Made by a program: the position numbers and the translations under genes
In this document: positions 23,482-56,513 of the stretch, piece after piece
Layout of the letters: each line of letters begins with the position of its first letter
Position numbering within the stretch: the stretch's first letter is position 1
The notes under the pieces: model-generated
Database searches by the model: none
Told to the model about the DNA's origin: nothing
Seen by the model: the letters and a program-made list of their open reading frames with translations, nothing else
Origin: Streptomyces umbrinus
GTDB lineage: Bacteria; Actinomycetota; Actinomycetes; Streptomycetales; Streptomycetaceae
DNA length: 64,000 nt
NCBI RefSeq assembly: GCF_030817415.1
Contig: NZ_JAUSZI010000002.1
Coordinates: forward strand, 9,833,501 to 9,897,500
Direction: 5' to 3'

Positions 23482-23508
23482 GACTGTACAAGCACGGATC
23501 ATGTGACA
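23482..23508 (-). promoter_or_regulatory. ECF41-type promoter P1 (sigma gene 22509)
   Basis: Minus strand: TGTCACA at 23508-23502, 16-base spacer, AGTC at 23485-23482; start codon at 23408. Confidence 0.65.
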
Positions 23509-23626
23509 GTGGGTCATCGTCGAGTGCAGCCACAGGATACTGCGACACATCGAGGCAGTAACAGTGTGACAGCATGACATGTCACTTCATACAAGAGACG
23601 GCATCCACTCATGAAGGGGTTCACCC

Positions 23627-24361
23627 ATGCCCGCAATTCTCGTCCACGGCGTTCCTGACACCCAGCACGTATGGGACGGTGTGCGCCGACACCTGACCAG
23701 GTCGGACGTGGAAGCCTGGAACCTGCCCGGCTTCGGGGGCGAGCGACCGGCCGGCTTCGGTTCCACCATGGAGGAGTACGCGGACTGGCTCATCGAGCGA
23801 CTGGAGCGGGTCGGCGAGCCGGTGGACCTGGTCGGTCACGACTGGGGGTGCATTCTCACCCTCCGCGTGGCCTCCCTGCGCCCCGACCTCGTCCGTACCT
23901 GGGCGGGAGGCAACGGGCCGATCAGCGCGGAGTACGTCTGGCATCCGTTGGCCAAGATCTGGCAGGACCAGGTCCAGGGCGACCGCTACATGTCCGAACT
24001 GCGCGCGGAGCCGTTCGCGGACGAGGTGTCGGTCGGCTTCGACGTGCCGCTCCCGCTGGCCAGGGAGATGGCGAGCCGGGTGGACGACACGATGAAGGAT
24101 GCGGTCCTCAAGCTGTACCGGTCGGCGGTCACCATGGGCGCGGAGTGGGAGCCGGCGCTGGCCGACGTGACCGCCCCGTGCGTGGTCTTCTGGGGAGCGC
24201 AGGACCCCGCCTGCCAGATCGAGTTCGGGCGCAGGCTCGGTGACTCCCTGCGCGCTTCCGAAGTGATCGAGATGGACTGCAATCACTGGCCGCTGCTTCA
24301 GCGGCCCGCGGAGGTCGCCGAGATCCTGGAGAAGCACTGGAGCGCGCACTCCGGCGCCTGA
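23627..24361 (+). CDS. Alpha/beta hydrolase, dehalogenase/epoxide-hydrolase type
   Basis: This 244-aa enzyme has the oxyanion region LVHGVPDTQHVWD, the nucleophile elbow LVGHDWGCILTL (Asp nucleophile, as in haloalkane dehalogenases and epoxide hydrolases rather than a Ser), a cap region with Trp-rich AKIWQDQVQG, an acid in FWGAQDPACQ and the catalytic His in DCNHWPLLQRP. The Asp nucleophile favours an ester-intermediate mechanism; the substrate is unknown. AAGGGG precedes the ATG. A partial TGTCACT element lies 44 bp upstream but lacks a good -10. Confidence 0.85.
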   Translation: MPAILVHGVPDTQHVWDGVRRHLTRSDVEAWNLPGFGGERPAGFGSTMEEYADWLIERLERVGEPVDLVGHDWGCILTLRVASLRPDLVRTWAGGNGPISAEYVWHPLAKIWQDQVQGDRYMSELRAEPFADEVSVGFDVPLPLAREMASRVDDTMKDAVLKLYRSAVTMGAEWEPALADVTAPCVVFWGAQDPACQIEFGRRLGDSLRASEVIEMDCNHWPLLQRPAEVAEILEKHWSAHSGA

Positions 24362-24457
24362 CGAACACGACGGTCGGACCGGTCGGACCGATCGGACGGC
24401 ACCGGCGGACCGCGCACCCGACCGACGTGACGGTATCCAGCCCGAGCAGAACCAGAA

Positions 24458-24497
24458 GCGGCACCGGCGATCGCGTATGCGCCCGGGCCGGTGCCGC
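24458..24497 (+). terminator. 10-bp hairpin terminator
   Basis: GCGGCACCGG pairs with CCGGTGCCGC around a 20-base loop, between the hydrolase stop and the next promoter, whose -35 begins only 4 bp later. Confidence 0.5.
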
Positions 24498-24500
24498 ATC

Positions 24501-24527
24501 TGTCACACGGGGCGGCGACGACCGGTC
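24501..24527 (+). promoter_or_regulatory. ECF41-type promoter P2 (NDH-2)
   Basis: TGTCACA at 24501-24507, N16, GGTC at 24524-24527; GTG start at 24561, leader about 25 nt. Confidence 0.78.
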
Positions 24528-24560
24528 TAAGAGTCGAAGCCGAGGAGAACAGAGGACACC

Positions 24561-25892
24561 GTGCGTGAGATCTTGATCGTGGGCGGCGGCTACGCGGGTT
24601 TCTACACCGCGTGGGGTCTTGAGAAGGAGCTGCGACGCGGTGAGGCACGGGTCACCGTGGTCGACCCGCGTCCCTACATGACGTATCAGCCGTTCCTGCC
24701 CGAGGTGGTCGCGGGGTCGGTGGAGGCGCGTCATGCCGCGGTGTCGCTCCGGCGACATCTGCACCGGACCCGTCTGATCGCGGGTGCGGTGACGGAGATC
24801 CGCAACGCCGCGCACACCGTGACGATCCGGCCGCAGTCCGGGCCGGAGTTCGACCTGCACTACGACACGCTGGTGGTGACGGCGGGAGCCGTCACCCGCT
24901 CCTTCCCCATCCCGGGGCTGCGCGAGCAGGCGTACGGACTCAAACACGTCGAGGAGGCCGTGGCGATCCGCGACCGGCTGCTCACGTCGTTCGACCGTGC
25001 GGCGACGCTGCCGGACGGGCCGGAACGGTGCAGGCTGCTCACCGTCACCGTCGTCGGTGGCGGCTTCTCCGGGGTGGAGGGCTTCGGTGAACTGCTGGGC
25101 CTGGCGTCCGCGCTGCTCAAGCACTATCCGGAGATCAAGGCGGACGAACTCGCCTTCCACCTGGTCGAGGCGCGGGGCCGCATATTGCCCGAGGTCACCG
25201 ACCGGCCCGGTGAGTGGGTGGTGCGTTCCTTGGAGAAGCGGGGTGCACGCGTCCATCTGAACACTCAGCTCCTCTCTGCCGAGAACGGACGCGTCGTGCT
25301 GTCGGACGGAACGGAGTACGACTCGGGTCTGCTCGTGTGGACGGCGGGCAACGCCTCCAACCCGATCGTGCACAATCACACCGACCTCCCGGTCGACGAG
25401 CACGGCCTGTTGAAGGTGCGCGCGGATCTCCGGGTGGGCACGGAGACCGAGGTCGTGCCGGACGTCTGGGCGGCCGGTGACGACGCCTCGGTGCCCGATC
25501 TCGCCGTAGGCCGACCGGACGCCCGCACGGTGCCCAACGCCCAGCACGCGGTGCGTCAGGGCAAGCGCCTCGCCAAGAACATCCTGGCGTCCCTGCGTGG
25601 CCGGCCGACCAAGAACTACGAGCACCACAGCCTCGGAGTGGTGGCCACGCTCGGCCTGGGCCGTGGCATCTTCCAGTACCGACGCCTGGTCATCAAGGGT
25701 TTCCCGGCCTGGCTGATGCACCGCGGCTACCACGTCCTGGCCGTGCCGAGCTGGGAGCGCAAGGCGAGGGTGTTCGCCGTGTGGGCGACCGCCGCCCTTT
25801 TCGGCCGTGACATCGTCTCTCTCGCCTCGGTCCAGCACCCGAGGGACGCCTTCGTCTCCAGCGGTGAGCCTCGGCGGCAGGAGTCACGCTGA
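24561..25892 (+). CDS. Type II NADH dehydrogenase (NDH-2-like flavoprotein)
   Basis: A 443-aa two-dinucleotide-fold flavoenzyme. The FAD Rossmann motif ILIVGGGYAGFYTAWGL is at the start, the NAD(P)H motif TVVGGGFSGVEGFGEL at about 168, the FAD-contacting VPDVWAAGDDASVPDL at about 300, and QNA-like NAQHAVRQGKRLAKNI follows, as in NDH-2. The C-terminal WLMHRGYHVLAVPSWERK region is the amphipathic membrane anchor. It oxidises NADH and reduces quinone without pumping protons. It sits under an ECF41-type promoter; a cytochrome b and a fumarate-reductase-like flavoprotein in the same regulon suggest an auxiliary respiratory set. Confidence 0.88.
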   Translation: MREILIVGGGYAGFYTAWGLEKELRRGEARVTVVDPRPYMTYQPFLPEVVAGSVEARHAAVSLRRHLHRTRLIAGAVTEIRNAAHTVTIRPQSGPEFDLHYDTLVVTAGAVTRSFPIPGLREQAYGLKHVEEAVAIRDRLLTSFDRAATLPDGPERCRLLTVTVVGGGFSGVEGFGELLGLASALLKHYPEIKADELAFHLVEARGRILPEVTDRPGEWVVRSLEKRGARVHLNTQLLSAENGRVVLSDGTEYDSGLLVWTAGNASNPIVHNHTDLPVDEHGLLKVRADLRVGTETEVVPDVWAAGDDASVPDLAVGRPDARTVPNAQHAVRQGKRLAKNILASLRGRPTKNYEHHSLGVVATLGLGRGIFQYRRLVIKGFPAWLMHRGYHVLAVPSWERKARVFAVWATAALFGRDIVSLASVQHPRDAFVSSGEPRRQESR

Positions 25893-27086: not shown

Positions 27087-27113
27087 GACCGAACAGTGAG
27101 GAGCGCTGTGACA
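27087..27113 (-). promoter_or_regulatory. ECF41-type promoter P3 (coiled-coil protein)
   Basis: Minus strand: TGTCACA at 27113-27107, N16, GGTC at 27090-27087; start codon 27025. Confidence 0.78.
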
Positions 27114-27134
27114 ACCGGCGTACGGCCCGCCGCG

Positions 27135-28222: not shown

Positions 28223-28249
28223 GACCGCGGGCGCGGATGCTTCGTGACA
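28223..28249 (-). promoter_or_regulatory. ECF41-type promoter P4 (ECF41 sigma 27135)
   Basis: Minus strand: TGTCACG at 28249-28243, N16, GGTC at 28226-28223; start codon 28088, implying a leader of about 130 nt. Confidence 0.65.
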
Positions 28250-28345
28250 CTTTCGCGGCGAGTTTTTTTCCGGGTTTTCGGAGGCGGGCAGTTCGGCTGT
28301 GCCATCGGAGCGGGCCTTGCGGCGGCGGGCGCCGTCATGGGCCGG

Positions 28346-28372
28346 ATGTCACACGCGCGCTGACAGTTCGGT
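28346..28372 (+). promoter_or_regulatory. ECF41-type promoter P5 (WhiB)
   Basis: TGTCACA at 28346-28352, N16, GGTC at 28369-28372; start codon 28482. Confidence 0.78.
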
Positions 28373-28481
28373 CTTTCAAGTGGAAAGCGGTAATGCGCGG
28401 CACGCGCTTTTCGCGAGCTCCCCCACACGAGGAGCGACCTCCCCCCGAACCGGTATCCGTTCCGCACACAGGAGGCATTCC

Positions 28482-28745
28482 ATGGATTGGCGCGTAAGGG
28501 GACTCTGCCTGAGCGAGGATCCTGACCTCTTCTTCCCCATCGGCAGTATCAACAGCGGTCCGGCGACGCTGCAGGTGGACGAGGCCAAATCCGTCTGCCG
28601 CCATTGCCCCGTTACGCGGCAGTGTCTGGCCTGGGCCGTCGAGATGGGCCCGGTCGAGGGGATCTGGGGAGGAACCACGGAAGGGGAGCGCCGTGCCATG
28701 CCACGGCGGACGGTGCGCGAGCAGGCCGTGAAGAGCGCCGCCTGA
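28482..28745 (+). CDS. WhiB-family iron-sulfur regulator
   Basis: An 87-aa Wbl protein. The four cluster ligands are Cys in RGLCLSEDPDLFF and in SVCRHCPVTRQCL (C-X2-C-X5-C), followed by the turn GIWGG and a basic C-terminus (RRAMPRRTVRE) for DNA contact. Wbl proteins hold an O2/NO-sensitive 4Fe-4S cluster and bind region 4 of the principal sigma factor. Start ATG with GGAGG 7 bases upstream. It is divergent from the ECF41 sigma gene and carries its own ECF41-type promoter, so it may relay redox signals downstream of the sigma factor. The exact Wbl subclass is unclear. Confidence 0.93.
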   Translation: MDWRVRGLCLSEDPDLFFPIGSINSGPATLQVDEAKSVCRHCPVTRQCLAWAVEMGPVEGIWGGTTEGERRAMPRRTVREQAVKSAA

Positions 28746-30342: not shown

Positions 30343-30369
30343 GACCGAGTGCGAACGTTTTCTGTGACA
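30343..30369 (-). promoter_or_regulatory. ECF41-type promoter P6 (NmrA-YceI)
   Basis: Minus strand: TGTCACA at 30369-30363, N16, GGTC at 30346-30343; start codon 30297. Confidence 0.8.
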
Positions 30370-30410: not shown

Positions 30411-32141
30411 CTATTCGACGAGCTTTCCGTCGGTGGAGACTTCCGCCATGAGGGACGCGATCTCGTCCGGAACGGCTGGGATGCTCTCGCGGGTGATTCC
30501 CGTCGTCGGGGACCAGACGAGGTTCACGCGGAGGGCGGGATCCATGTCGGGGAAGTCACTGCGGTTGTGACACCCGCGGGTCTCCCGGCGTTCCAGCGCC
30601 GCTTCGAGAGTGGCGCGGGCCGCGAGGGCGGCCGACTTCAGGTCGAAGGCGTGGGCGAGGTCCTGGAAGCCGGCGATGTCGGGGTGCACCCCTACGTTCT
30701 GCATGCGTTCCTCGATGGCGTCCAGTTCCGCCAGCCCGGTGCGCAGACCCTCTTCGTCGCGGACGACGCCGGCGTGCTCGGTCATCGTGTTGCGGATCGC
30801 GCGCTGGAGCGCGCGGACGTTCTCGGGTCCGTCGGCGGCGAGCAGTTCCTCGACTTCGGCGCGCGCCTGGGCCACGGCGGTCGCGGACCGGGGCTGCGCG
30901 GTGAGCGACTCCGAGTAGGCGGCGGCCGCCTGACCGGTGATACGGCCGTAGACGAGGAGTTCGATCAGGCTGTTGCCCCCCAGCCGGTTGGCGCCGTGCA
31001 GTCCGCTGGCCGCCTCGCCGATGGCGTACAGGCCGCGCACGTCGGTGCTGTGGTCCTCGGGACGCACCCAGACGCCCCCCATCGAGTAGTGCGCCGTGGG
31101 GGCGACCTCGATGGGTTCACGGGTGATGTCGAGCATCTGCAGTTCGAGGAGCGTCTGGTAGACCCGGGGCAGCCGGTTCATGATCGTCTGACGGGGCAGA
31201 TGGGAGACGTCGAGCCAGACCCCGCCGTTGGGGGTGCCGCGGCCTTCCTTGATCTCGGTGTAGGAGGCGAGGGCCACGCGGTCGCGGGTGGACAGTTCCA
31301 TGCGCTCGGGGTCGTAGCGGTTCATGTACCGCTCGCCGAGGGCGTTGCGCAGGATGCCGCCCTCGCCGCGGGCGGCCTCGCTGACCAGGGTGCCGGCGGC
31401 GTTCTCCGGTTCGATGATCCCGGACGGGTGGAACTGCACCAGCTCGGGGTCGCGCAGGCGGGCCCCGGCCTCGACCGCCAGGCGGAAGGAGTCGCCGGTG
31501 TTCTCGTCCCGCCGGGAGGAGGTACGGCGCCAGATGCGCGTGTGCCCGCCGGCCGCGAGGATGACGGCGTCCGCGTGGACGAGGTAGCCGGTGCCGTTGT
31601 TCAGGTCGAAGCCGTAGGCCCCGAAGACGGCACCTTCGTGGACCAGCAGCCGTGTGATGTACACGGTGTCGAGCATGGGTATGTCGAGCTGGCTCGCACG
31701 CCGGATGAGGGTGCGCTGGATCTCCAGGCCGGTGTAGTCACCGGCGAAGGCGGTGCGGCGGAACCTATGGGCGCCGAAGAAGCGCTGAGAGATACGGCCG
31801 TCCCCTTCGCGGGCGAATTCCATGCCGTACCGCTCCAGGTCGTCGATGCCCAGGGCCGCCCCCTGGGTGACGATCTCGGCCGTACGGGGGTCGCCGAGGA
31901 GGTAACTCTCCTTGAGCGTGTCCGCGGCGTGCTGCTGCCAGGAGTCCTCGGGGTCCATCGTGGCCAGCGCCGCGTTGATGCCCCCGGCGGCCAGGGACGT
32001 GTGGGTGTCCTCCTTGGGACGCTTGCCGACGGCGACGACGTCGACACCGGCCTCGGCCAGTTCGATCGCGGCCCGAAGGCCGGCACCGCCGGTACCGATC
32101 ACCAGCACCGTGGTGGAAATTTGTCGTTCGGTGATAGGCAC
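30411..32141 (-). CDS. Fumarate reductase/succinate dehydrogenase flavoprotein-like (SdhA/FrdA/AprA class)
   Basis: This 576-aa flavoprotein has the FAD motif VLVIGTGGAGLRAAIELAEA, the FAD-attachment region HTSLAAGGINAAL, the capping-domain QFHPSGI, the active-site EAARGEGGIL and TAHYSMGGV, and EAASGLHGANRLGGNSL near the second FAD motif. It has the C-terminal helical domain of the Sdh/Frd family. No iron-sulfur (SdhB) or membrane-anchor subunits lie nearby; a 7Fe ferredoxin is divergent at 32312. Thus it may be a soluble flavoprotein that receives electrons from that ferredoxin, or an L-aspartate-oxidase-like enzyme. Confidence 0.85.
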   Translation of the reverse strand: MPITERQISTTVLVIGTGGAGLRAAIELAEAGVDVVAVGKRPKEDTHTSLAAGGINAALATMDPEDSWQQHAADTLKESYLLGDPRTAEIVTQGAALGIDDLERYGMEFAREGDGRISQRFFGAHRFRRTAFAGDYTGLEIQRTLIRRASQLDIPMLDTVYITRLLVHEGAVFGAYGFDLNNGTGYLVHADAVILAAGGHTRIWRRTSSRRDENTGDSFRLAVEAGARLRDPELVQFHPSGIIEPENAAGTLVSEAARGEGGILRNALGERYMNRYDPERMELSTRDRVALASYTEIKEGRGTPNGGVWLDVSHLPRQTIMNRLPRVYQTLLELQMLDITREPIEVAPTAHYSMGGVWVRPEDHSTDVRGLYAIGEAASGLHGANRLGGNSLIELLVYGRITGQAAAAYSESLTAQPRSATAVAQARAEVEELLAADGPENVRALQRAIRNTMTEHAGVVRDEEGLRTGLAELDAIEERMQNVGVHPDIAGFQDLAHAFDLKSAALAARATLEAALERRETRGCHNRSDFPDMDPALRVNLVWSPTTGITRESIPAVPDEIASLMAEVSTDGKLVE

Positions 32142-32176: not shown

Positions 32177-32203
32177 GACCAGGTCAGGCGGCGGTTTGTG
32201 ACA
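32177..32203 (-). promoter_or_regulatory. ECF41-type promoter P7 (flavoprotein)
   Basis: Minus strand: TGTCACA at 32203-32197, N16, GGTC at 32180-32177; start codon 32141. It lies back-to-back with P8. Confidence 0.8.
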
Positions 32204-32216
32204 GCGGCAGAACGCG

Positions 32217-32243
32217 AGTCACAACGTGACGGTGTCCTTGGTC
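32217..32243 (+). promoter_or_regulatory. ECF41-type promoter P8 (ferredoxin)
   Basis: AGTCACA at 32217-32223, N16, GGTC at 32240-32243; start codon 32312. The -35 elements of P7 and P8 are only 13 bp apart. Confidence 0.72.
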
Positions 32244-32311
32244 ATACAGACGCGCCCGACGTCCGCGCGCCGGTGCCGCGACGTGTTCGACGTTCGAGGA
32301 GGAGGAGAGGG

Positions 32312-32698
32312 ATGACGTACGTCATCGCGCAGCCCTGCGTCGACATCAAGGACCGGGCCTGCGTGACCGAATGCCCCGTGGACTGCATCTACGAGGGCTC
32401 ACGCACGCTCTACATCAACCCCCAGGAGTGCGTCGACTGCCACGCGTGCGAACCCGTCTGCCCCGTGGAGGCCATCTTCTACGAGGACGACCTGCCGCCG
32501 GACTGGGCGCACTACCTTGCCGTCAACGCCGAGTACTTCACCGCGGCGGCTCCGGACCCCCGCGGACCGCGTGACACGGTGGGCGATCACCCTCTCGTCG
32601 CGGCACTGGCGCCGCAGAGTCCGAGCAAGAAGGAGATCTCCGTCTTCACCGCCCGCAAGGAAGAAGCCGCCGACGCGGACCTGTGGTTCCCGTCATGA
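32312..32698 (+). CDS. 7Fe (3Fe-4S/4Fe-4S) ferredoxin, FdxA-like
   Basis: A 128-aa ferredoxin with MTYVIAQPCVDIKDRACVTE leading into CPVDCIYEG, then CVDCHACEPVCPVEAIF. The Cys spacing CX7CX3C...CX2CX2CX3C marks a 7Fe ferredoxin. After the fold (about residue 70) there is an extended hydrophilic tail longer than usual. Strong purine-rich ribosome site GGAGGAGGAGAGGG before the ATG. Divergent from the flavoprotein gene with paired ECF41-type promoters, so electron transfer between the two is likely. Confidence 0.92.
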   Translation: MTYVIAQPCVDIKDRACVTECPVDCIYEGSRTLYINPQECVDCHACEPVCPVEAIFYEDDLPPDWAHYLAVNAEYFTAAAPDPRGPRDTVGDHPLVAALAPQSPSKKEISVFTARKEEAADADLWFPS

Positions 32699-32760: not shown

Positions 32761-33258
32761 TCAGGAGGCCAGCGTGATGGTGGTCGGCGTTCCCCGCCAG
32801 GCCATGCGCGCGTACGGACACAACGCGTCGGCCTTCTCGATCAGGTCGTCGGCCGTCTCGGGAGCGACTCCGGGCCACCGCACCACCAGATCGACGTGCA
32901 GCAGATAGCCGCCGTCCTCCGGGTCCCGCCCGAAGGCGACGGTCGCCTCGATCGAGATTGCCGCCGGATCGAGGCCCTCCTGACGTGCCAGCAGGCTCAG
33001 CGCGCCGTGGAAGCACGCCGCGAAACCCGCCGCGAAGAGCTGCTCGGGGTTGGTTCCCCGGCCGTCACCGCCCAGCTCGGCGGGCATCCGCAGGTCGAGG
33101 TCGAGGGCGCCGTCGGACGAGCGGGCCCGGCCGGAGGCCCGTCCATGTGAGGCCACACCGCCGTGGACGGTCACGGTGGTCGTGTAGATGGGCGAGAACT
33201 CCTCTCCGTCGTAGTCCTTCTCGGTCGACAGGGTGGGCAACTGGATCCGTTCGGTCAC
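32761..33258 (-). CDS. Ohr/OsmC-family peroxiredoxin-like protein
   Basis: This 165-aa protein (GTG start) has the Ohr pattern: a beta hairpin YTTTVTVHGGVASHGRASGR, then GTNPEQLFAAGFAACFHGAL with the peroxidatic Cys, and ADALCPYARMAWRGT with the resolving Cys. Ohr proteins reduce organic hydroperoxides with lipoyl-dependent electrons. The regulon also encodes a lipoylated E2 (44411), a plausible source of dihydrolipoyl groups. Under P9. Confidence 0.9.
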   Translation of the reverse strand: MTERIQLPTLSTEKDYDGEEFSPIYTTTVTVHGGVASHGRASGRARSSDGALDLDLRMPAELGGDGRGTNPEQLFAAGFAACFHGALSLLARQEGLDPAAISIEATVAFGRDPEDGGYLLHVDLVVRWPGVAPETADDLIEKADALCPYARMAWRGTPTTITLAS

Positions 33259-33317
33259 GGCATGACTCCGTTGTCGTCGAGGTGCGCAGTCCCGGCAGAG
33301 GTCCGGGACCACTGAAT

Positions 33318-33344
33318 GACCGACAAGCAGCCGGAACTGTGACG
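33318..33344 (-). promoter_or_regulatory. ECF41-type promoter P9 (Ohr)
   Basis: Minus strand: CGTCACA at 33344-33338, N16, GGTC at 33321-33318; start codon 33258. Confidence 0.7.
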
Positions 33345-34422: not shown

Positions 34423-34449
34423 TGTCACGGATCCATCGCACACCTGGTC
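34423..34449 (+). promoter_or_regulatory. ECF41-type promoter P10 (DUF5134)
   Basis: TGTCACG at 34423-34429, N16, GGTC at 34446-34449; start codon 34466, which leaves a leader of only about 10 nt. Confidence 0.68.
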
Positions 34450-37627: not shown

Positions 37628-37701
37628 CAATGGTCCTTTCTCGGTGCGGCCCCGTGCGGATGACGGGGCTGCCGTGCGAGGCACGGGTTGGCGGGCGCCG
37701 G

Positions 37702-40630: not shown

Positions 40631-40657
40631 GACAGTGTGTGAGCCGAGCGTGTGACA
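40631..40657 (-). promoter_or_regulatory. ECF41-type promoter P12 (methyltransferase, leaderless)
   Basis: Minus strand: TGTCACA at 40657-40651, N16, TGTC at 40634-40631. The ATG begins 9 bp after the -10, leaving no room for a ribosome site. Confidence 0.68.
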
Positions 40658-40763: not shown

Positions 40764-40790
40764 TGTCACAGATGAATGACATGTGCAGTC
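40764..40790 (+). promoter_or_regulatory. ECF41-type promoter P13 (hydroxyacid dehydrogenase)
   Basis: TGTCACA at 40764-40770, N16, AGTC at 40787-40790; start codon 40893. A second TGTCACA sits at 40748-40754 without a matching -10. Confidence 0.7.
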
Positions 40791-41868: not shown

Positions 41869-41895
41869 CGTCACACCCCGGCCGTCTCACCGGTC
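41869..41895 (+). promoter_or_regulatory. ECF41-type promoter P14 (cytochrome b)
   Basis: CGTCACA at 41869-41875, N16, GGTC at 41892-41895; start codon 42044. Confidence 0.65.
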
Positions 41896-43712: not shown

Positions 43713-43739
43713 TGTCACACCTTCCATTGTTCTCCGGTC
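43713..43739 (+). promoter_or_regulatory. ECF41-type promoter P15 (GNAT-like gene)
   Basis: TGTCACA at 43713-43719, N16, GGTC at 43736-43739; start codon 43912, leader about 165 nt. Confidence 0.75.
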
Positions 43740-45604: not shown

Positions 45605-45722
45605 GATGTCGTTCAACTCCTCATGGATCGGCAGGGCGTGAGTGCCCCCCGAACCTCTTGTCCACGGATTGCGGCATGCGGCCCGTGCGGCGCATGCGGG
45701 GTCGGTCGCGGCACGCGGCCAC

Positions 45723-48410
45723 TCACCGGTCGAGGCCGTAACGTGCGCGCGCCTGAGCGACGGTCGCCGGCGGGATCACCCCGGCTCGGGCCAGCCGGTC
45801 CAGCGCGGTCACCACGATCGACTCGGCGTCCACCCGGAAGTGCCGGCGCACGTCCTCACGGGTGTCGGACAGCCCGAAACCGTCGGTGCCCAGGGAGTAG
45901 TAGTCCTGTTCGACCCACTGGCTGATCTGGTCGGGTACCTGCCGCATCCAGTCACTGACGGCCAGCACCGGCCCCGGCGCTCCGGCGAGGGCCCGGGTGA
46001 CGAACGGTGTGCCTTCCTCGCCCCGCATCCGGGCGTCGTCGGCACGCATCGCGTCCCGGCGCAGCTCAGTCCAGGACGTCACCGACCACACGTCGGCGTA
46101 CACCTGCCAGTCGGAGGCGAGCAGTTCCTGTGCCCTCAGGGCCCAGTGGATGGCCGTACCGGAGGCCAGCAGTTGCAGCCGGCGACCGTCGGTGACGGGT
46201 TCGGCGGGCCGGAACCGGTAGATGCCCCGAAGGATGCCCTCCTCGATGCCGGGGACCGCCGGCATGGCGGGCTGGACCTTGGGCTCGTTGTAGACGGTCA
46301 GGTAGTAGAAGACGTTCTCGGGCTGCTCGCCGTACATCCGGCGCAGACCGTCGCGGACGATCACCGCGATCTCGTAGGCGAATGCCGGGTCGTAGCTGAT
46401 CGCCGCGGGGTTGGTGGAGGCGAGCAGGTGCGAGTGCCCGTCCCCGTGCTGCAGGCCCTCACCGGTCATCGTCGTACGCCCGGCCGTGCCGCCGACCACG
46501 AAGCCGCGGCCCATCTGGTCGGCGAGCGCCCAGAACTGGTCACCGGTGCGCTGGAAACCGAACATGGCGTAGAAGATGTAGAACGGGATCATCGGCTCGC
46601 CGTGTGTGGCGTACGAGGTCGCCGCGGCGGTGAACTCGGCGACCGAACCGGCCTCGGTGATGCCCTCGATGAGTAGTTGCCCGGTGGTGCTCTCCTTGTA
46701 GTGGAGCAACTGGTCCGCGTCGACCGGGTCGTAGTTCTGGCCCTGCGGCGAGTAGATGCCGGCCGTGGGGAACATCGACTCCATGCCGAAGGTGCGGGCC
46801 TCGTCGGGGATGATCGGCACCCAGCGGGCCCCGCTGTGCGGGTCGCGCATCAGGTCCTTGACCAGCCGGACCAGTGCCATCGTGGTGGCGACCTCCTGAT
46901 GGCCGGACCCCTTCTCCAACTCCTCGAACGGCTTGGCGGGCGGCTCCGGCAGCGGCTTGGCGGTGACCCGGCGCAGCGGAACGGGACCGCCCAGCGCGGC
47001 CCGGCGTTCGCGCAGGTACCGCACCTCGGGCGAGTTCTCCCCGGGATGCCAGTACGGGACCTGGTCGCCGGCGAGCGCCGCGTCGGGGATGGGCAGCTCC
47101 AACAGGTCGCGCATCGCCCGGAACTGATCCATCGTGAGCTTCTTCATCTGGTGGTTGGCGTTGCGGGACTCGAACGCCGAGCCCAGAGTGTGCCCCTTCA
47201 CCGTCTGGGCGAGGACCACCGTCGGTGCGCCCCGGTGCTCCACGGCGGCCCGGTAGGCGGAGTACACCTTCAACGGCTCGTGTCCGCCCCGCGAGTTCTC
47301 GAACAGCTCGACCACCTGCGCATCGCTCAGGGAGGCGGAGAGCGCGGACAGGGCGTCACCCTGGAAGAAGTTCTTGCGTATGTAGGCGGCGTCCCGCACG
47401 GCGAGCGTCTGCATCTGCGCGTCGGGCACCTCGCCCAGTTGCCGCACCAGGTCGCCGGTGGTGTCCTGGCTCAGCAGCGGGTCCCAGGCTTCCCCCCACA
47501 GGGTCTTGACCACGTTCCAGCGCGCGCCGCGGAACCGTGCCTCCAGCTCCTGGACGATCTTCGAGTTGGACCGTACCGGCCCGTCCAGGCGCTGCAGATT
47601 GCAGTTGACGACGAACGTCAGGTTGTCCAGACCCTCGCGGGAGGCCAGCGTCAGGGCCGCCATCGACTCCGGCTCGTCCATCTCCCCGTCGCCGAGGAAC
47701 GCCCACACCCGTGAGGCCGAGGTGTCCTTGATGCCGCGGGCGTGCAGATAGCGGTTGAAGCGGGCCTGGTAGATGGCGCCGAGCGGGCCGAGCCCCATGG
47801 ACACCGTCGGGAACTCCCACAGCCACGGCAGCCGTCGGGGGTGCGGGTAGGACGGCAGGCCCTGACCGCCCGCCTCCCGCCGGAAGGCGTCCAGTTGCGC
47901 CTCGCTCAGGCGTCCTTCGAGGAAGACCCGGGCGTAGATGCCGGGGGAGGCGTGCCCTTGCAGGAAGAGCTGGTCCCCCGAGCCGTCCCCGTCCTTGCCC
48001 TGGAAGAAGTGGTTGAACCCGATCTCGTAGAGCCAGGCGGCCGAGGCGTACGTGGAGATGTGGCCGCCCAGTCCTAGCCGGGAGCCGCGGGTGACCATCG
48101 CCGCGGCGTTCCACCGGTTGAGCGCGGTGATCCTGGACTCCATCTCCAGGTCACCGTCGAACTCCGGCTGCGCCGCGGCCGGGACGGTGTTGACGTAGTC
48201 CGAGAACAGCAGCCCCGGCAGCGACGTTCCCGTCCGCGCGGCGAACTCGTGCACGCGCCGCATCAGATACACAGCCCGTTCCGGCCCGGCGTTGCGCACT
48301 ACCGCGTCGAGGGACGCCTGCCACTCGGCGGTCTCCTCGCGGTCCCGGTCGGGTAGCTGGTCGAGCTCACTGATCACAGGGGTCTCAGTGGGCCGGGACG
48401 GTTCATTCAT
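45723..48410 (-). CDS. aceE: Pyruvate dehydrogenase E1, homodimeric (AceE)
   Basis: An 895-aa protein of full length for AceE. It has the thiamine-diphosphate region [19 protein letters not shown] with [20 protein letters not shown], the N-terminal [20 protein letters not shown] and [20 protein letters not shown], and [16 protein letters not shown] at the second domain. It decarboxylates pyruvate and acetylates the lipoyl domain of E2. Its gene is followed by E2 and preceded by the NmrA-type gene (117 bp), all on the minus strand, probably one operon from P16. Streptomyces usually carries an aceE elsewhere, so this may be a second, stress-linked copy. Confidence 0.93.
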
Positions 48411-48526
48411 GGCAGCCTTCCTGTCACGGCGTGAGCGCCGGCGATGTCGGACGCGGACACGGTGGGTGTCGTGGGCAGCCGACCTGGTGGGTTGCGCGGG
48501 CGACGAGGCGGCGCCGCCCGGTCACC

Positions 48527-49267
48527 TCAGCGGCTCTTGAGCCACTGGGCGAACGTGTGGTGGCCCAGGTGGGCGTCCGGCCCGGGGAGGAGGGCCCGCT
48601 CCTCGACCACGGCGCCGAAGAAGGGGGCACGCGCGTCGGCGACGACCGGGTCGGTCCGGCCCAGGGTGCCCAGCAGCGCGGCCGTGGCGTCGTCGAGGCG
48701 CACCTCCTCGGGACCGGCTGCCTCGACCACGCCGAACTCCGGCAGCCCCACCGCGACATGGGCGACCGTCGTGGCGACGTCGTCCGCCGCGACCGGCCGC
48801 AGCAGCAGGGGCGGCACGTGCACACCGTCGGACCGGGTGCCAGCCACGGCGGCGGCCGCCACCGACTCGTGGAACGGCGTGGCGCGGACCACGGAATACG
48901 GGATGGGGGTGTGCCTGACCAGGTCCTCCTGCGCGGCCTTGGCCCGGAACCAGCCCGAGCCGACCCGGTCGGCACCCACCACCGACAGCGCCACGTAGTG
49001 CCCCACGCCTGCCGCGGCGGCGGCCTTGAGGAGGTTGCTCGTCGAGGTGGTGAAGAAGTCCGTGCTGACCTGTTGGTCCCGGGAGGGCGCGTCGGTGACG
49101 TCCACGAGCACCTCGGCGGTGCGCAGCACCTGGGCGAGACCTTCCCCGGTGCTGACGTCCACTCCTTCGCCGCGGGAGATCGGCACGACCTCCACCCCGT
49201 GGTCTCGGAGCCTGGCGACGGTCCGGGAACCGATCAGGCCGGTGGCACCTGCGACGACGACTTTCAT
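48527..49267 (-). CDS. NmrA/SDR-type NAD(P)-binding protein, paralogue 2
   Basis: A 246-aa paralogue of the protein at 29551, collinear throughout: VVVAGATGLIGSRTVARLRD, TSTSNLLKAAAAAGVGHYVA, WFRAKAAQEDLV and ALLPGPDAHLGHH. ATG at 49267. Each paralogue has its own ECF41-type promoter (P16 here), a repeated pairing of this enzyme class with the regulon. It probably heads the AceE/E2 operon. Confidence 0.88.
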   Translation of the reverse strand: MKVVVAGATGLIGSRTVARLRDHGVEVVPISRGEGVDVSTGEGLAQVLRTAEVLVDVTDAPSRDQQVSTDFFTTSTSNLLKAAAAAGVGHYVALSVVGADRVGSGWFRAKAAQEDLVRHTPIPYSVVRATPFHESVAAAAVAGTRSDGVHVPPLLLRPVAADDVATTVAHVAVGLPEFGVVEAAGPEEVRLDDATAALLGTLGRTDPVVADARAPFFGAVVEERALLPGPDAHLGHHTFAQWLKSR

Positions 49268-49362
49268 CTGGGTCTCTTCCGTCAGGGGGCGTGTGACCCC
49301 GCTGGATGTCGGTGGCAGACAGTGGCGGACATTGGCGCGTGCCACCGTGCTCATCAGACCTA

Positions 49363-49389
49363 GACAGCGCACATTCGTTTCTTGTGACA
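49363..49389 (-). promoter_or_regulatory. ECF41-type promoter P16 (NmrA2-AceE-E2)
   Basis: Minus strand: TGTCACA at 49389-49383, N16, TGTC at 49366-49363; start codon 49267. Confidence 0.66.
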
Positions 49390-49436
49390 CCGCGCCCTGC
49401 CTCCCGGGTGCGGGACGTGAACCGACTGTCGTCCCT

Positions 49437-49463
49437 TGTCACAGATCCGGCCGACATCTGGTC
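49437..49463 (+). promoter_or_regulatory. ECF41-type promoter P17 (cupin 1)
   Basis: TGTCACA at 49437-49443, N16, GGTC at 49460-49463; GTG start 49556. Confidence 0.78.
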
Positions 49464-52167: not shown

Positions 52168-53694
52168 TCATTCGACGGCTTGGTGACGGATGAAGCGGGA
52201 CACCAACGGGGGTTCCGTCAGCCACCCGTGTGTCCGCCCGTGCGGCGGATGCGGGGCGGTGGCGGTCTGCCGCAGCGCGCCGAAGGAGACCGCCGCGCCG
52301 ACGGCAAGCAGGGCCGCGCACAGGGGCATGGCCCGGGTGAAGGCCGCGTCGAAGGCCGCATCCGACCGGTATGCCTCGGGGCCCATTCCGACCAGCAGCG
52401 GCAGCGCCGCCACGGCCACCAGACCGGCCGCCCGGGCGGCGGCGTTGTTGATGCCGCTGGCCAGGCCGGCGTTGGAGGCGTCCACCGAGGCCAGCAGAGT
52501 CACCGTCAGCGGGGCGACCAAGATGACCATGCCGCTGCCCATCACCAACAGGGCGGGGAGGATGTCGTAGACGTAGGACGCGCCCGGCCCGGCCCGCAGC
52601 ATCATCACCATCCCCGCTCCGCACACCAACGGGCCGACGGTGAGCGGCACCCGCGGTCCCAGCCGCTGGGCGAGCATCCCAGCGTGGGCCGAGAACAGCA
52701 GCATCAGCACGGTGTTGGGCAGCATGGCCGCACCGGCGGCCAGCGCCGAGTAGCCGACGACGATCTGCAGGTGCAGGGCCGTGAGAAAGAAGAAGCCCCC
52801 GGTACCGGCGTACACGCACAGGGTGATCACATTGATGGCGGTGAACTGCCGTGAGGCGAAGATCGTCGGCGGCATCATCGGGTCATCGCTGTGCAGCTCC
52901 ACGCGGAGGAACGCGGCCCCCGCCAGCACGCCGCCGACGGCCGCGACGCTGGCCACCGGACCTCCGTCGCGCGCCTCGGTCAGCGCGTAGGTGACCAGGG
53001 CGAGCGCCAGGGCGCCCAGGACGGCACCGGGGATGTCGAAACCGGCCCGCCACCACCCTGCCGCGCGGGCCGCCTCCTGGTGCGGTGCGCCTACAGACTC
53101 CGGGACATGACGCAGCGCCACCGGCACGCACACCAGCGCCGGGACGATGCTCAGCAGGAAGGTCCAGCGCCAACCGGGGCCGTCGACCAGCCACCCGCCC
53201 AGGAACGGTCCTAGGGCGGCGCCGATGCCGCCGAACCCGGACCACAGGCCGATCGCGCGCGGCCGGTCGTCCGGGTGGAAGGAGGACTCGATGATCGCCA
53301 GTGAGCCGGGGGTGAGCAGCGCTCCGCCGACGCCCTGGAGTGCCCGGGCGGCGATCAGCGTGTTGGTGTCCGGGGCCAGGCCGCACAGCAACGAGGCCAC
53401 CGCGAACCAGACGGTGCCCAGGACGAAGACGCGGCGCCGCCCGAAACGGTCTCCCAGGGAGCCGCCCAGCAGGATGAGTCCAGCCAGGGTCAGCATGTAG
53501 GCGTTGACCGTCCACTGGAGCACGGCGAGGTCGGCGTCGAAGTCCTCGCCGATGTGGGGGAGCGCGACATTGGTGACCGTCGAGCCGAGCAGCACGACGC
53601 CGGAACCCAGGACGGTGGCCAGCAGAGTCCACCGGCCCCGGGCAGTGGCGATGCGGAGGACGGTGGTGCCCTCGGGCGTGGGGGTCTGGTTCAT
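52168..53694 (-). CDS. MFS drug efflux transporter, DHA2 (14-TM) type
   Basis: A 508-aa transporter with 14 predicted membrane helices. Family signatures are LGSTVTNVALPHIGEDFDAD in the first helix, GRRRVFVLGTVWFAVASLLC (motif A region) and LIAARALQGVGGALLTPGSL (motif C of drug-proton antiporters). Likely exports hydrophobic or cationic drugs using the proton gradient. The start overlaps the stop of the epoxide hydrolase-like gene by 4 bp, indicating coupling. Confidence 0.92.
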   Translation of the reverse strand: MNQTPTPEGTTVLRIATARGRWTLLATVLGSGVVLLGSTVTNVALPHIGEDFDADLAVLQWTVNAYMLTLAGLILLGGSLGDRFGRRRVFVLGTVWFAVASLLCGLAPDTNTLIAARALQGVGGALLTPGSLAIIESSFHPDDRPRAIGLWSGFGGIGAALGPFLGGWLVDGPGWRWTFLLSIVPALVCVPVALRHVPESVGAPHQEAARAAGWWRAGFDIPGAVLGALALALVTYALTEARDGGPVASVAAVGGVLAGAAFLRVELHSDDPMMPPTIFASRQFTAINVITLCVYAGTGGFFFLTALHLQIVVGYSALAAGAAMLPNTVLMLLFSAHAGMLAQRLGPRVPLTVGPLVCGAGMVMMLRAGPGASYVYDILPALLVMGSGMVILVAPLTVTLLASVDASNAGLASGINNAAARAAGLVAVAALPLLVGMGPEAYRSDAAFDAAFTRAMPLCAALLAVGAAVSFGALRQTATAPHPPHGRTHGWLTEPPLVSRFIRHQAVE

Positions 53695-54656
53695 GGCGCG
53701 TCCTGGCGTTCCCGGGCGAAGGGTTCGCGGCCGGCCTGCTCCTGCCGCAGGTCGCGCACGTCGCGTACGGCCGCCGCGAACGCCTCGGGGCGCTCCTGCG
53801 GAAGGTTGTGGCCGGCGTCTGCCACCTTGCGGTGGAGCCGTGGGCCGGTGAAGTGACGGGCGGACGAAGAGCCGTCCGTGGCCGGGAAGTTGCCGTCGGC
53901 CAGACCGTCCAGGGTGATGGCGGGCACCGTGATCGCCGGCAGCCCGGCGAGACGCGCTTCCAACTCCGCGTACTGCTCGGCGCCCGGCGCGAAACCGAGC
54001 CGGTGCCGGTATGAATGGAGCACTACGTCGGTGTAGTCGGGGTTGGTGAAGGACTCCGCTGCCCGATCCAGATCACTCTCGCGGAACGGCCACTTCGGGG
54101 AGTTCCGCTTCCAGATGACCCGTGCGATCTCCCGGGGGTCGTTCGCCAGTCCGGCCCGTCCCCGCTCGGTGAGGAAGTAGTAGAAGTACCAGAAGCCCGC
54201 CTCCCGTTCGGGTGCGAGAGGGATCGCCGCCGCGCCGATGTCCTGGATGAGGTAGCTGTTGACCGAGACCAGGCCGAGGACGCGCTCGGGCCACAGGGCG
54301 GCGGCGACATTGGCCGCGCGCCCGCCCCAGTCGTATCCGGCGAGGTAGGCGCGCTCCACGCCCAGGGCGTCCATGAAAGCGACGACGTCCGCGCCGAGGG
54401 CGGCCTGCTGACCGGAGCGCGGAGTCGATCCGAGGAGGAATCTGGTGGGGCCGTGCCCCCGCAGATACGGAACGACGACCCGGAACCCGCTGTCCGCGAG
54501 CAGTGGGGCCACGTCCACGTAGCTGTGGATGTCGTAGGGGACACCGTGCAGGAGCAGCACGGTGTCCCCGTCCGCTGAACCCGTCTCGTAGTAGGCGACT
54601 TCCAAGACGTCCGTGCTGACCCGTCGCAGGGGGGCGAGTGCGTGGCGTTCTGACAT
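53691..54656 (-). CDS. Epoxide hydrolase-like alpha/beta hydrolase
   Basis: A 321-aa enzyme with VLLLHGVPYDIHSYVDVAPL and the nucleophile Asp in YLAGYDWGGRAANVAAAL, which is the Asp-Trp-Gly motif of epoxide hydrolases. The catalytic His is in KVADAGHNLPQERPEAF. ATG at 54656 with AAGGA. The 235-bp gap to the AhpD-like gene upstream on the same strand has no clear promoter, so it may be read through from P18. Detoxification together with the coupled efflux pump is the likely role. Confidence 0.87.
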   Translation of the reverse strand: MSERHALAPLRRVSTDVLEVAYYETGSADGDTVLLLHGVPYDIHSYVDVAPLLADSGFRVVVPYLRGHGPTRFLLGSTPRSGQQAALGADVVAFMDALGVERAYLAGYDWGGRAANVAAALWPERVLGLVSVNSYLIQDIGAAAIPLAPEREAGFWYFYYFLTERGRAGLANDPREIARVIWKRNSPKWPFRESDLDRAAESFTNPDYTDVVLHSYRHRLGFAPGAEQYAELEARLAGLPAITVPAITLDGLADGNFPATDGSSSARHFTGPRLHRKVADAGHNLPQERPEAFAAAVRDVRDLRQEQAGREPFARERQDAP

Positions 54657-54890
54657 GAGGGTCCTTGGGATGCGTGGCCCGCGACGGATGGCACGGCCCG
54701 CCGGGCGGGCGCAGCCGGTCGGCTCACGACGACAGCGGTGCCGTGCTTCGCGACGACAGCAGCGCCGCGTGCTACGCGACCGTGCGGGCATCCGTCGACA
54801 GGCTGGGGCGGGCTTGGCCCGTCGCCTGGTCGGTGGTCGGGGCGACCAGGCGACGGACGGTTCGTGTCCGGCCGGGCCGGAGCGGCTGAC

Positions 54891-55361
54891 TCAGCCGAAC
54901 ATGCCGGGCTTGTAGCCGCCGGCCGGCTGCTGGTTGATGACGTTGATGCGGTTGTAGGCGTTGATGACGGCGATCAGCGAGATCAGCGCGGCGAGCTGGT
55001 CCTCGTCGTAGTGCTTCGCGGCGTTCGCCCACGCCTCGTCCGACACACCGCCTGCGGCGTCCGCGATGCGCGTGCCCTGCTCGGTCAGCTCCAGCGCGGC
55101 GCGCTCGGCGTCCGAGAAGACCGTGGCCTCGCGCCACACGGCCACCAGGTTCAGACGCTGCTGGTCCTCACCTGCCGCGGCGGCGTCCTTGGTGTGCATG
55201 TCGGTGCAGAAGCCGCAGCCGTTGATCTGGCTGGCACGGATCTTCACCAGCTCCTGAGTGGTGACCGGGATGGCCGCATGCACTGCCGCTCCGGCCGAGT
55301 TGAGGTGCTTCATGACCTTTCCGGCGAGGGCGTTGCCGAAGTAGTTGATGCGCGCGTCCAC
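54891..55361 (-). CDS. Carboxymuconolactone decarboxylase/AhpD-family protein
   Basis: A 156-aa AhpD-like protein: INGCGFCTDMHTKDAAAAGE with the CXXC and downstream His forming the peroxidase-type active site, then WREATVFSDAERAALELTEQ. GTG start with AAGGAG. Such proteins reduce peroxides via lipoyl groups or act on lactones. This is the COE class most often encoded beside ECF41 sigma factors, and its promoter P18 is a perfect consensus match. Confidence 0.92.
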   Translation of the reverse strand: MDARINYFGNALAGKVMKHLNSAGAAVHAAIPVTTQELVKIRASQINGCGFCTDMHTKDAAAAGEDQQRLNLVAVWREATVFSDAERAALELTEQGTRIADAAGGVSDEAWANAAKHYDEDQLAALISLIAVINAYNRINVINQQPAGGYKPGMFG

Positions 55362-55398
55362 GATGTATCTCCTTAAGTGGGAACACTGACAGCTCATT

Positions 55399-55425
55399 GA
55401 CCGTGAGGCCTCACGTTTTGTGACA
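55399..55425 (-). promoter_or_regulatory. ECF41-type promoter P18 (AhpD-like)
   Basis: Minus strand: TGTCACA at 55425-55419, N16, GGTC at 55402-55399; GTG start 55361. Confidence 0.82.
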
Positions 55426-55610
55426 ACGCCTCGTTCACCACACCGTGCGAGTGCGCACCGTGTCCGTGGCCCACTTCCGGCTACGCCGTCGGGCGCCGAT
55501 ACCATCGAATGAGTAGATCAGGGCCCGTCGGCCCGAGCCGGCGCCGTCCTCCCGCGCCCACGGACACCGGGCGCGGCGAGCGCCGCACCTCCGAACACAA
55601 GGTGAACACC

Positions 55611-56402
55611 ATGGCATCCGAAAGTGTCCTGCACCCGAGTCTCATCGTCCCGATCGGCCACGTCGAGCCCGTTCCGCGCCGGATCCGCGGAATGATCGGC
55701 GGCCGGGTCGCCTTCGATACCCGCCGCGCGCTGTACGTCTGGGAATGGCAGGCATATCCGCAGTTCAGCATCCCGATCGAGGACCTGGTGGAGGGTGTGC
55801 TCCACGACGACAAGCACACCGAGCAGCTCGGCGCCGGACCCGCGCACCGTCACACCTTGCACGTCGGCCCGGAAGTCCGCGCGGGAGCGGCGTGGATCTG
55901 GGGGGAAGGCGCCCCGCGAGCCCTGCGCGACACCGTGCGTTTCGAGTGGGAGGCGCTGGACTCCTGGTTCGAGGAGGACGAGCCGGTCTTCGTCCATCCG
56001 CGCAGCCCGTACTCCCGTGTGGACGCTCTGCGTTCCAGCAGCTCGGTCCGAGTGGAGCTGGACGGCGTCGTGCTGGCGGAGGCGGCCGACTGCGTGAAGC
56101 TGTTCGAGACCGGCCTGCCGACCCGCTACTACCTCGATCGCACGAACATCGACTGGACGCGGCTGCGGCACTCGGACACGGTGACCCGATGCCCCTACAA
56201 GGGGACGACGAGCAGCTACTGGTCCTTCGACAGCGACACCGCCTCCCACGAGGACATCGCCTGGACCTACGACTTCCCGACCATCCACGCCAACCGCATC
56301 GCCGGACTCACCGCGTTCTACAACGAACACGTCGATCTGTACGTCGACGGCACTTTGTTGCTGCCGAGGCCCGTGGACCCCGCCCAAATGGCATCCGACT
56401 AG
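55611..56402 (+). CDS. DUF427-domain protein (two domains)
   Basis: A 263-aa protein made of two DUF427-like halves: one around GGRVAFDTRRALYVWEWQAY (about 30-50) and the other around SVRVELDGVVLAEAADCVKL and LPTRYYLDRTNIDWTRL (about 145-185), ending TTSSYWSFDS. DUF427 is a beta-rich fold of unknown function, common in actinobacteria. ATG at 55611. No ECF41-type promoter was found upstream, although its neighbours carry them. Confidence 0.8.
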   Translation: MASESVLHPSLIVPIGHVEPVPRRIRGMIGGRVAFDTRRALYVWEWQAYPQFSIPIEDLVEGVLHDDKHTEQLGAGPAHRHTLHVGPEVRAGAAWIWGEGAPRALRDTVRFEWEALDSWFEEDEPVFVHPRSPYSRVDALRSSSSVRVELDGVVLAEAADCVKLFETGLPTRYYLDRTNIDWTRLRHSDTVTRCPYKGTTSSYWSFDSDTASHEDIAWTYDFPTIHANRIAGLTAFYNEHVDLYVDGTLLLPRPVDPAQMASD

Positions 56403-56486
56403 CGACAACTGTTCCCTTGGCCGGCAGGGCGCTTGCTCGAGAACGGACCTGGCCGACAAGTGAATGTCGTGCCGTTTTCCCGGACG

Positions 56487-56513
56487 CGTCACACTTTGAC
56501 TCCCGGCACGGTC
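56487..56513 (+). promoter_or_regulatory. ECF41-type promoter P19 (esterase)
   Basis: CGTCACA at 56487-56493, N16, GGTC at 56510-56513; GTG start 56564. Confidence 0.72.

Follow-up and report, generated by a model that had tools for sequence, protein, structure and literature searches.

A 65-kb array of candidate ECF41-type promoters with a GGTC −10 element in Streptomyces umbrinus

A 64,000-nucleotide stretch of the Streptomyces umbrinus genome (contig NZ_JAUSZI010000002.1, positions 9,833,501 to 9,897,500; hereafter the window, whose first letter is position 1) carries a dense array of short elements of the form TGTCACA-N16-GGTC ahead of genes. An initial annotation of this DNA had described 19 such sites as promoters of a clustered ECF41 regulon. 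Our analysis confirms this observation and enlarges the array: 27 candidate promoters occupy 65 kb, and 20 are inside the window (the earlier 19 plus one at 62125). We consider it likely that these sites are real promoters of one regulon, recognized by a branch of the ECF41 sigma factors represented by P0003 (33386..34282, minus strand) and its relative P0002 (27135..28088, minus strand). The motif, the array and its extent, its conservation, the sigma clade, and the association between motif and clade are read directly from the DNA and protein sequences.

All 19 sites between 23482 and 56513 were located at their positions with the sequences claimed for them. The −35 element is an exact TGTCACA at 13 and carries one change at six, and the −10 element is GGTC at 15, AGTC at two, TGTC at two, and CGTC at none. 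The window contains 24 matches to TGTCACA-N17-GTC (up to one mismatch) versus 4.52 (standard deviation 1.93) in 100 dinucleotide-preserving shuffles of the same sequence, none of which reached 24 (largest count, 10). Five matches are absent from the earlier 19: those at 23390, 30546, 40411, and 48422 were set aside as probable chance matches, being about as many as expected, and the one at 62125 (minus strand), 15 bp ahead of an OsmC gene, looks like a genuine site. Matches are not as frequent elsewhere in the genome. The exact pattern occurs 33 times in the whole 12.44-Mb sequence (reversed-pattern control, 3), and 17 of these lie in one cluster from 23,482 to about 88,100 in window coordinates, 13 of them inside 23482..56513 and four downstream of the window (66151, 75752, 79568, and 85574). 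The binomial probability that a given 65 kb would hold 17 of the 33 matches is about 2e-30, for a stretch that was picked after being seen. The first −10 base also separates the cluster from the rest of the genome: it is G at 10, T at five, A at two, and C at none of the 17 cluster sites, versus C at 11, G at two, A at two, and T at one of the 16 sites outside (C in 0/17 versus 11/16, Fisher p=2e-5).

The same signature accompanies relatives of P0003 in other organisms. From 173 stretches encoding such relatives the best 80 were kept, giving 79 loci (L022-L100) from several actinobacterial families, and their 1.52 Mb contain 307 exact sites versus three reversed-motif sites. At least five exact sites occur in the fetched stretch of 26 of the 79 loci, so these would not be single-target systems, and 0 or 1 in another 26. 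The spacer of 16 bp stands out: N13-N15 and N17 gave 1-6 matches each, N11 gave 49, and N22 gave 15. TGTCACA-N11-TGTC makes up 33 of the 49 N11 matches, and this excess probably reflects a CTGTC-CGGTC spacer preference; the spacer end itself prefers CTG(C/T)C. In 299 distinct sites, the −10 region reads C84/T16, G80/T17/A3, and GTC, followed by A/T, T, and A in a GC-rich background, and a KG step that resembles a start site lies 6-7 bp past the GTC. The upstream flank and the first two thirds of the spacer carry little information. C directly precedes GTC at only one of the 307 sites, so the −10 element departs from the CGTC consensus. Where the −10 element is good, single changes in the −35 element are scarce (counts of 0-4; unrelated 7-mers, 1.3), with the exception of C for the first T (26; consensus, 100).

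The sites are also placed as promoters would be. The upstream-most start of a coding-like open reading frame (ORF) in range is faced by 220 of the 299 sites, versus 261 of 897 random places. Taken without the window as a guide, 298 genes stand behind the 307 sites, among them 62 NmrA-type genes (in 50/79 loci), 22 SdhA/FrdA-like, 22 sigma factor, 19 carboxymuconolactone decarboxylase (CMD; in 18/79 loci), 16 cytochrome b, and 13 WhiB genes. NmrA-type and CMD genes are the COE class of target (carboxymuconolactone decarboxylase, oxidoreductase, or epimerase) typical of ECF41, and the TGTCACA −35 element and spacer of 16±1 bp agree with that group by their association with the sigma gene.

A weight matrix defined the extent of the array. 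It was built from 289 sites of the loci L023-L100, leaving out the near-identical L022 (96% alignment identity to the window). Thirty resamples of the 164-kb region gave on average 0.47 matches scoring at least 14, and because one resampled score reached 22.4, the highest obtained, the matrix score alone proves no single site. Eighteen of the 19 earlier sites score at least 14, the remaining one (28223) scores 13.9, and 24 places between 23,482 and 88,114 score at least 14. Three further sites (28223, 75752, and 82625; 11.9-13.9) were retained for their boxes and positions. The matrix added one new site, 69852 (plus strand), with the −10 element TCATC. The place at 30546 was dropped despite a score of 13.3, near those of 28223 and 75752, since its −10 element is CCGAC and it lies within a gene; the low-scoring 24481 (10.7) and 52123 (10.6) were also left out. 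Outside the cluster, one place scores at least 14 (117006), with no called gene behind it. The initial annotation had ended the cluster at 56,513, which is too early: the array runs on to about 88,114. Past the window, the genes facing sites include those for an NAD_binding_10 protein, an SdhA/FrdA-like flavoprotein, a MarR regulator, a sugar transporter, a ferritin-like protein, and LtrA. Seven of the 19 earlier sites fall within the longest possible ORF of their gene; these starts are likely called over-long, because homologues carry the motif ahead of the conserved N-terminus.

Conservation of the motif ahead of homologous genes was followed in the 79 loci (homologues with at least 40% identity over at least half the length; up to one mismatch in the motif), with a reversed-motif control of 0-3 per gene. 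The motif is kept ahead of all homologues of the NDH-2-like (11/11), SdhA/FrdA-like (24/24), OsmC-1 (20/20), ferredoxin reductase (12/12), 2-hydroxyacid dehydrogenase (5/5), and hypothetical 26675 (6/6) genes, and ahead of most homologues of NmrA-1 (56/61), NmrA-2 (31/33), ferredoxin (12/13), cytochrome b (13/15), methyltransferase (15/16; control 3), OsmC-2 (6/7), and hypothetical 56568 (5/6). For four genes the start was also trimmed, by lengths that we set after seeing the site positions in the window, which makes the trimmed counts less independent: with the called and the trimmed start, respectively, the motif precedes 5/6 and 16/16 WhiB, 5/7 and 4/6 cupin-1 (49436-50014), 0/7 and 12/13 DUF5134, and 2/13 and 18/20 CMD homologues. 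The low untrimmed DUF5134 and CMD counts reflect starts called too early. Weaker footprints were found for SDR 64872 (2/6), GNAT (2/4), and DUF427 (0/1). Among sigma genes, the motif precedes 14/23 P0001 homologues and 8/78 P0003 homologues (control 3). Operon-internal genes mostly lack it (25926, 0/19; Aldedh-like, 0/13; PIG-L, 0/11; AMP-binding, 0/2; hydrolase, 0/3; E2, 0/1; pyruvate dehydrogenase E1, 1/4), and YceI is placed inside its operon because none of eight homologues has the motif. The initial proposal, a large ECF41 regulon whose promoters lie physically together and have a GGTC −10 element, is supported in that the motif travels with the sigma clade through the 79 loci and is kept before orthologues.

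The genome contains 18 ECF41-like sigma matches (E≤1e-8), and five of these lie within the 65 kb or at its border. P0003 and P0002 both match Sigma70_r2 and Sigma70_r4_2 above gathering scores and carry WLPEP in the linker between sigma2 and sigma4, as do 96 of 103 long members of their clade. ECF41 proteins have a C-terminal extension of about 100 aa with conserved motifs and NPDKL at its end. P0003 matches TIGR02957 (SigX4) over its length (residues 16-291) and has a long extension with NPDKL; P0002 also has a C-terminal extension, with NPAKI in place of NPDKL. Among the long clade members, DG.G is present in 103/103 and NP.K(L/I) in 77/103. TIGR02957, which we take to correspond to ECF41, has a cut-off of 323.25 that is passed by P0003 (337.8) and P0002 (325.8), and the SigJ model NF007214 (cut-off 271) is passed by P0003 (274.7), with P0002 at 259 falling below it. 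No Pfam match to a SnoaL domain was obtained for either protein at E 0.001, and a SnoaL fold would be expected from family membership. With these matches, the WLPEP linker, and SigJ as the best solved relative of P0003, the ECF41 label first given to the sigma genes among the sites holds. P0001 (22509..23408, minus strand) is a divergent ECF41-like protein with DGGGK and NPDKL, without WLPEP, and at 179.6 bits on TIGR02957; the short P0004 (62347..63057, plus strand) is also below the cut-off.

A tree of 112 sigma sequences (all from the own genome and its related loci, plus 60 chosen at random from the 79 loci) groups P0003, P0002, the own-genome paralogue L102, P0004, and a copy at 78799-79557 in one clade with support 100/99; six ECF41 paralogues that have CGTC sites fall outside it. 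An exact site lies close by for 31 of the 64 clade rows, and all 31 have G, T, or A, none C, at the first −10 base; outside the clade, six rows are labelled C. The 10 rows of P0001 and its kin make up a group of their own with long branches; six of them have G/T/A sites, as they are located in clusters. L102, at 10.5 Mb, is 71% identical to P0003 and has a CGGTC site ahead of an NmrA-like gene (by eye). Comparison loci meant for CGTC-type sigmas were picked by antisense-strand similarity to L104, and a translated search identified the sigma homologues in them. CGTC sites of the own genome lie ahead of the sigma genes L104 and L113 themselves, ahead of CMD-like and DoxX-like genes beside the sigma gene L106 (by eye from N-termini), and ahead of another CMD-like, a DoxX-like, and an NDH-2-like gene (by eye); three of the 16 exact sites outside the cluster have no convincing gene behind them. 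In sigma2, the P0003 clade mostly has Q50, T52 (73/102), and R54 (P0003 numbering); in the CGTC-linked sigmas these positions hold, respectively, T/S/A/V, V or S, and mostly L. These three residues are candidates for the −10 change, among many other positions that differ too. The short sigmas P0004 and 78799-79557 (L006:15299-16057) end at about residue 205 of P0003, and the three reading frames past the two genes showed no remnant of the missing domain. Short sigmas that stop at the equivalent of P0004 residue 222 are also found in S. muensis (L063) and S. caeruleatus (L066).

Across 61 genomes, 16 carry the P0003 clade (E≤1e-80), and these have on average 6.6 GGTC sites versus 1.4 in genomes without it (p=7e-6; within order, p=5e-5). 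At least three exact GGTC sites within 20 kb occur in 8/16 clade genomes (own genome included) and 0/45 others. The survey figures come from the matches listed, and genomes with unlisted sites, except G000 and G034, have at most two. No CGTC-site cluster was found among the matches listed or in the own genome. Five loci with at least five sites hold P0003 alone within the fetched flank, and there are loci in which a site adjoins P0003 alone. Relatives of P0003 (60-80% identity) are encoded on three of 38 matched plasmid records; the copy on the plasmid of Streptomyces sp. NBC_00841 (L173, NZ_CP108854.1) is accompanied by six sites. The megaplasmid G019:C2 also carries a copy of the sigma with several sites, and such megaplasmid copies suggest that the island may move between strains. 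In Nocardiopsis sp. FR4 (L023, NZ_VWVV01000010.1), 10.6 kb of pieces have a mean nucleotide identity of 94% to the Streptomyces cluster, which points either to recent transfer or to an assembly with the wrong label. At G004:C1:80234-80265, a pair of GGTC-type matches, one on each strand, overlap almost fully in a palindromic arrangement (TGTCACACCG...CGGTGTGACA), possibly a bidirectional promoter or an operator.

Within the window, the array begins with an exact CAGTC-type site at 23482..23508 (minus; matrix 21.8), 74 bp ahead of P0001. A CGGTC site at 24501..24527 (plus) precedes a pyridine nucleotide-disulphide oxidoreductase (24561..25892, plus; Pyr_redox_2, E=1.8e-39), which the initial annotation had labelled NDH-2 and for which no NCBIfam model scored above its cut-off. 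The CGGTC site at 27087..27113 (minus; 29.7) precedes the hypothetical gene 26675-27085, and a weak, uncertain site, TGTCACG..CGGTC at 28223..28249 (minus; 13.9), lies ahead of P0002, which is 58% identical to P0003. A CGGTC site at 28347..28373 (plus; 30.1) is assigned to a WhiB-family regulator (longest ORF 28299..28745, plus; Whib, E=3e-23), whose true start is probably downstream of 28299. The operon of NmrA-1 (29551-30297, minus), an NmrA/NAD_binding_10 oxidoreductase, and YceI (28824-29507, minus) lies behind the CGGTC site 30343..30369 (minus; 29.4). The TGGTC site 32177..32203 (minus; 28.1) precedes an SdhA/FrdA-like flavoprotein (30411..32141, minus) with FAD_binding_2 and Succ_DH_flav_C domains, which scores below the sdhA/frdA model cut-offs and has no partner subunits seen adjoining it. 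AGTCACA..TGGTC at 32217..32243 (plus; 15.7) precedes a 4Fe-4S ferredoxin (longest ORF 32198..32698, plus; Fer4), and CGTCACA..CGGTC at 33318..33344 (minus; 17.8) precedes OsmC-1 (32761..33312, minus). P0003, the proposed master sigma, follows, and then TGTCACG..TGGTC at 34423..34449 (plus; 21.9), ahead of a DUF5134 gene.

Further along, the CGGTC site 39766..39792 (minus; 30.9) precedes the operon 35136..39821 (minus), which encodes a ferredoxin reductase (38442-39821), a PIG-L deacetylase (37702), an AMP-binding protein (36527), and an Aldedh-like protein (35136). A CTGTC site at 40631..40657 (minus; 19.5) faces a methyltransferase (39855-40622), and a CAGTC site at 40764..40790 (plus; 22.6) a 2-hydroxyacid dehydrogenase (40893-41831). 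CGTCACA..CGGTC at 41869..41895 (plus; 17.9) precedes a QcrB-type cytochrome b (42044..43678, plus; NF050120, 725 bits, cut-off 500), and the CGGTC site 43713..43739 (plus; 29.6) a GNAT gene (43912-44322). The CTGTC site 49363..49389 (minus; 19.0) lies ahead of the genes for NmrA-2, pyruvate dehydrogenase E1, and E2 acyltransferase (44411..49390, minus), and the TGGTC site 49437..49463 (plus; 29.7) ahead of the cupin gene 49436-50014, whose start is probably over-called. An IS110-family transposase gene lies inside the cluster at 50715-52034. The CGGTC site 55399..55425 (minus; 24.5) precedes genes for CMD, an alpha/beta hydrolase, and an MFS transporter (52168..55505, minus), and CGTCACA..CGGTC at 56487..56513 (plus; 14.2) precedes the hypothetical gene 56568-57050. 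The added candidate, CGTCACA..CGGTC at 62125..62151 (minus; 15.8), faces OsmC-2 (61658-62110) and is followed by P0004, whose extension is missing its distal part. Past P0004, at ~63200-63700, a frame with remnants of a LuxR-type helix-turn-helix and a P-loop-like piece (by eye) resembles a degenerate LAL regulator; genes of the LAL type, encoding AAA_16 and GerE domains, lie at 58865-61636 and 66990-69809.

We infer from these patterns how the regulon may be used and activated, how it may have grown, and what its physiological role could be. P0003 would be made at a roughly constant level, since the motif rarely precedes its gene, and, by analogy with studied ECF41 proteins, would be kept inactive by its own fused C-terminal extension, with no anti-sigma factor involved. 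It would probably be freed by an intracellular cue such as a small molecule or redox state, as suggested by the retained WLPEP linker and NPDKL. The released sigma would recognize YGTCACA-N16-(G/T)GTC with C or T before the −10 element and an AT-rich stretch after it, and RNA polymerase would then start at about 25 promoters grouped in 65 kb. The induced set would comprise disulphide-oxidoreductase and SdhA/FrdA-like flavoproteins, ferredoxin, the reductase, cytochrome b, WhiB, OsmC, CMD, NmrA, and pyruvate dehydrogenase; by their family names, these targets suggest remodelling of electron flow together with thiol and peroxide protection. P0001, itself behind a site, could form a second tier that extends the response, being a predicted target that accompanies 20 of 26 loci with at least five sites and one of 26 with 0 or 1 site. 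The available text on Ecf41Bli reports that a cut at residue 204 made it about 20-fold more active and that a shorter protein lost activity (PMC3426412), and because the cut lies at a similar residue, the short sigmas are putatively able to act without a signal. The regulon would have started with one target and expanded to about 25 promoters: the simple arrangement of a sigma and an NmrA gene, which many species still have, would have given rise to the cluster in mostly streptomycetes. Only tentatively do we extend this to a contiguous tiered island, with changed −10 specificity, P0003 as ligand-gated master, P0001 as second tier, shortened P0004 and 78799-79557, and one promoter type governing a complete alternative redox chain across 65 kb.

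Several findings weigh against assigning the promoters to the P0003 clade in so simple a way. Six of the 79 loci have no exact site, and the plasmid SAT1 carries a copy of the sigma with no site in 41 kb. The motif is poorly kept ahead of cupin-2 (5/11), abhydrolase-2 (10/24), and P0002 homologues (14/77, paralogues included), and the footprint counts are not independent events, because the species are related and L022 is 96% identical to the window. The −10 label is also imperfect: the non-clade sigmas L114, L136, and L139 stand beside GG, GA, and CA sites; L107, L140, L143, and L146 stand beside GTGTC sites at 329-1435 bp, too far off to be labelled or, in the case of L146, with no row in the tree; and L106, with TCGTC sites 660-732 bp off, outside the label range, joins the clade stem with weak support (89/50). 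P0001-type sigmas are present in 20/26 loci with at least five sites, 5/27 with 2-4, and 1/26 with 0 or 1, so P0001 could share the work. The promoters would then be real but used by the P0001-type sigma or by a number of ECF41 paralogues together, and not chiefly by P0003. The motif ahead of P0001 and the presence of five ECF41-like sigma genes within the 65 kb or at its border fit that account, which we nevertheless judge unlikely, if worth serious attention: the same motif is present in many loci whose fetched flank holds P0003 only, and L102 has its CGGTC site far from P0001.

Far less probable is that the repeat is an operator of a classical regulator, such as WhiB or a LuxR-type protein, and no promoter. 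Both WhiB and LAL-type LuxR regulators are encoded in the region, but the repeat is non-palindromic and gene-oriented, with a fixed N16, an AT-rich −10 edge, and a start-site-like signal; WhiB homologues occur in just 16 of the 79 loci; and the −35 element is the same as in the tested ECF41 promoters described in the available text of PMC3426412. Chance, composition bias, or a motif-bearing mobile repeat can hardly explain the array: random one-mismatch matches would account for 4-5 sites and nothing beyond, no shuffle reached the window count, and the 79 loci gave 307 matches to 3. The boxes are fixed while the upstream flank and the greater part of the spacer are low in information, which argues against a copied repeat. 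Orientation, spacing, and the free spacer sequence led us to reject the operator and repeat-element readings. Recognition of one set of promoters by the P0003 branch remains the account we favour.

ECF41 sigma factors are widespread and their physiological role is largely open. About 300 predicted promoters with a matching sigma clade offer a strong, testable regulon and a natural shift of −10 preference; the series from one target to about 25 may show regulon growth by promoter gain, and the shortlist of redox genes gives a basis for guessing the signal. No clustered multi-promoter ECF41 regulon or GGTC −10 element was found in the titles and abstract beginnings of the literature covered, and the ECF re-classification may already list a CGGTC-type subgroup. 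The accessible parts of the main ECF41 study describe these sigmas as controlling a single gene or operon, with single targets in B. licheniformis and R. sphaeroides, and as kept in check by the fused C-terminal domain (PMC3426412); S. meliloti RpoE9 likewise has a single target in the portion available (PMC6180224), and the WLPEP linker and NPDKL are thought to touch each other, according to the sections at hand of PMC7730460.

The canonical ECF41 proteins (Ecf41Bli, Ecf41Rsp, RpoE9, and M. tuberculosis SigJ) share with the system described here WLPEP, a long extension ending in NPDKL, a TGTCACA −35 element, a 16-bp spacer, and COE targets (CMD and NmrA-type oxidoreductase/epimerase). They differ, as far as the excerpts consulted go, in having CGTC in place of C(G/T)GTC at −10 and one target in place of about 25 clustered promoters (PMC3426412, PMC6180224). 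The CGTC element, which the initial annotation had given for published ECF41 promoters, stands as a consensus and not as a strict rule, since PydfG of B. licheniformis has TGTT in the same available text (PMC3426412). Azospirillum RpoE10, an ECF41 from another phylum with other genes, controls lateral flagella and so has effects beyond one COE gene, as the available parts of the reports state (PMC12826043, PMC8999054). ECF56 SigG1 of Streptomyces tsukubaensis is similarly an ECF sigma factor with a SnoaL_2 extension, but belongs to another group, has no NPDKL in the part available, and has the anti-sigma factor RsfG (PMC7730460). Unlike that of canonical ECF41, the target set described here reaches respiratory and redox genes.

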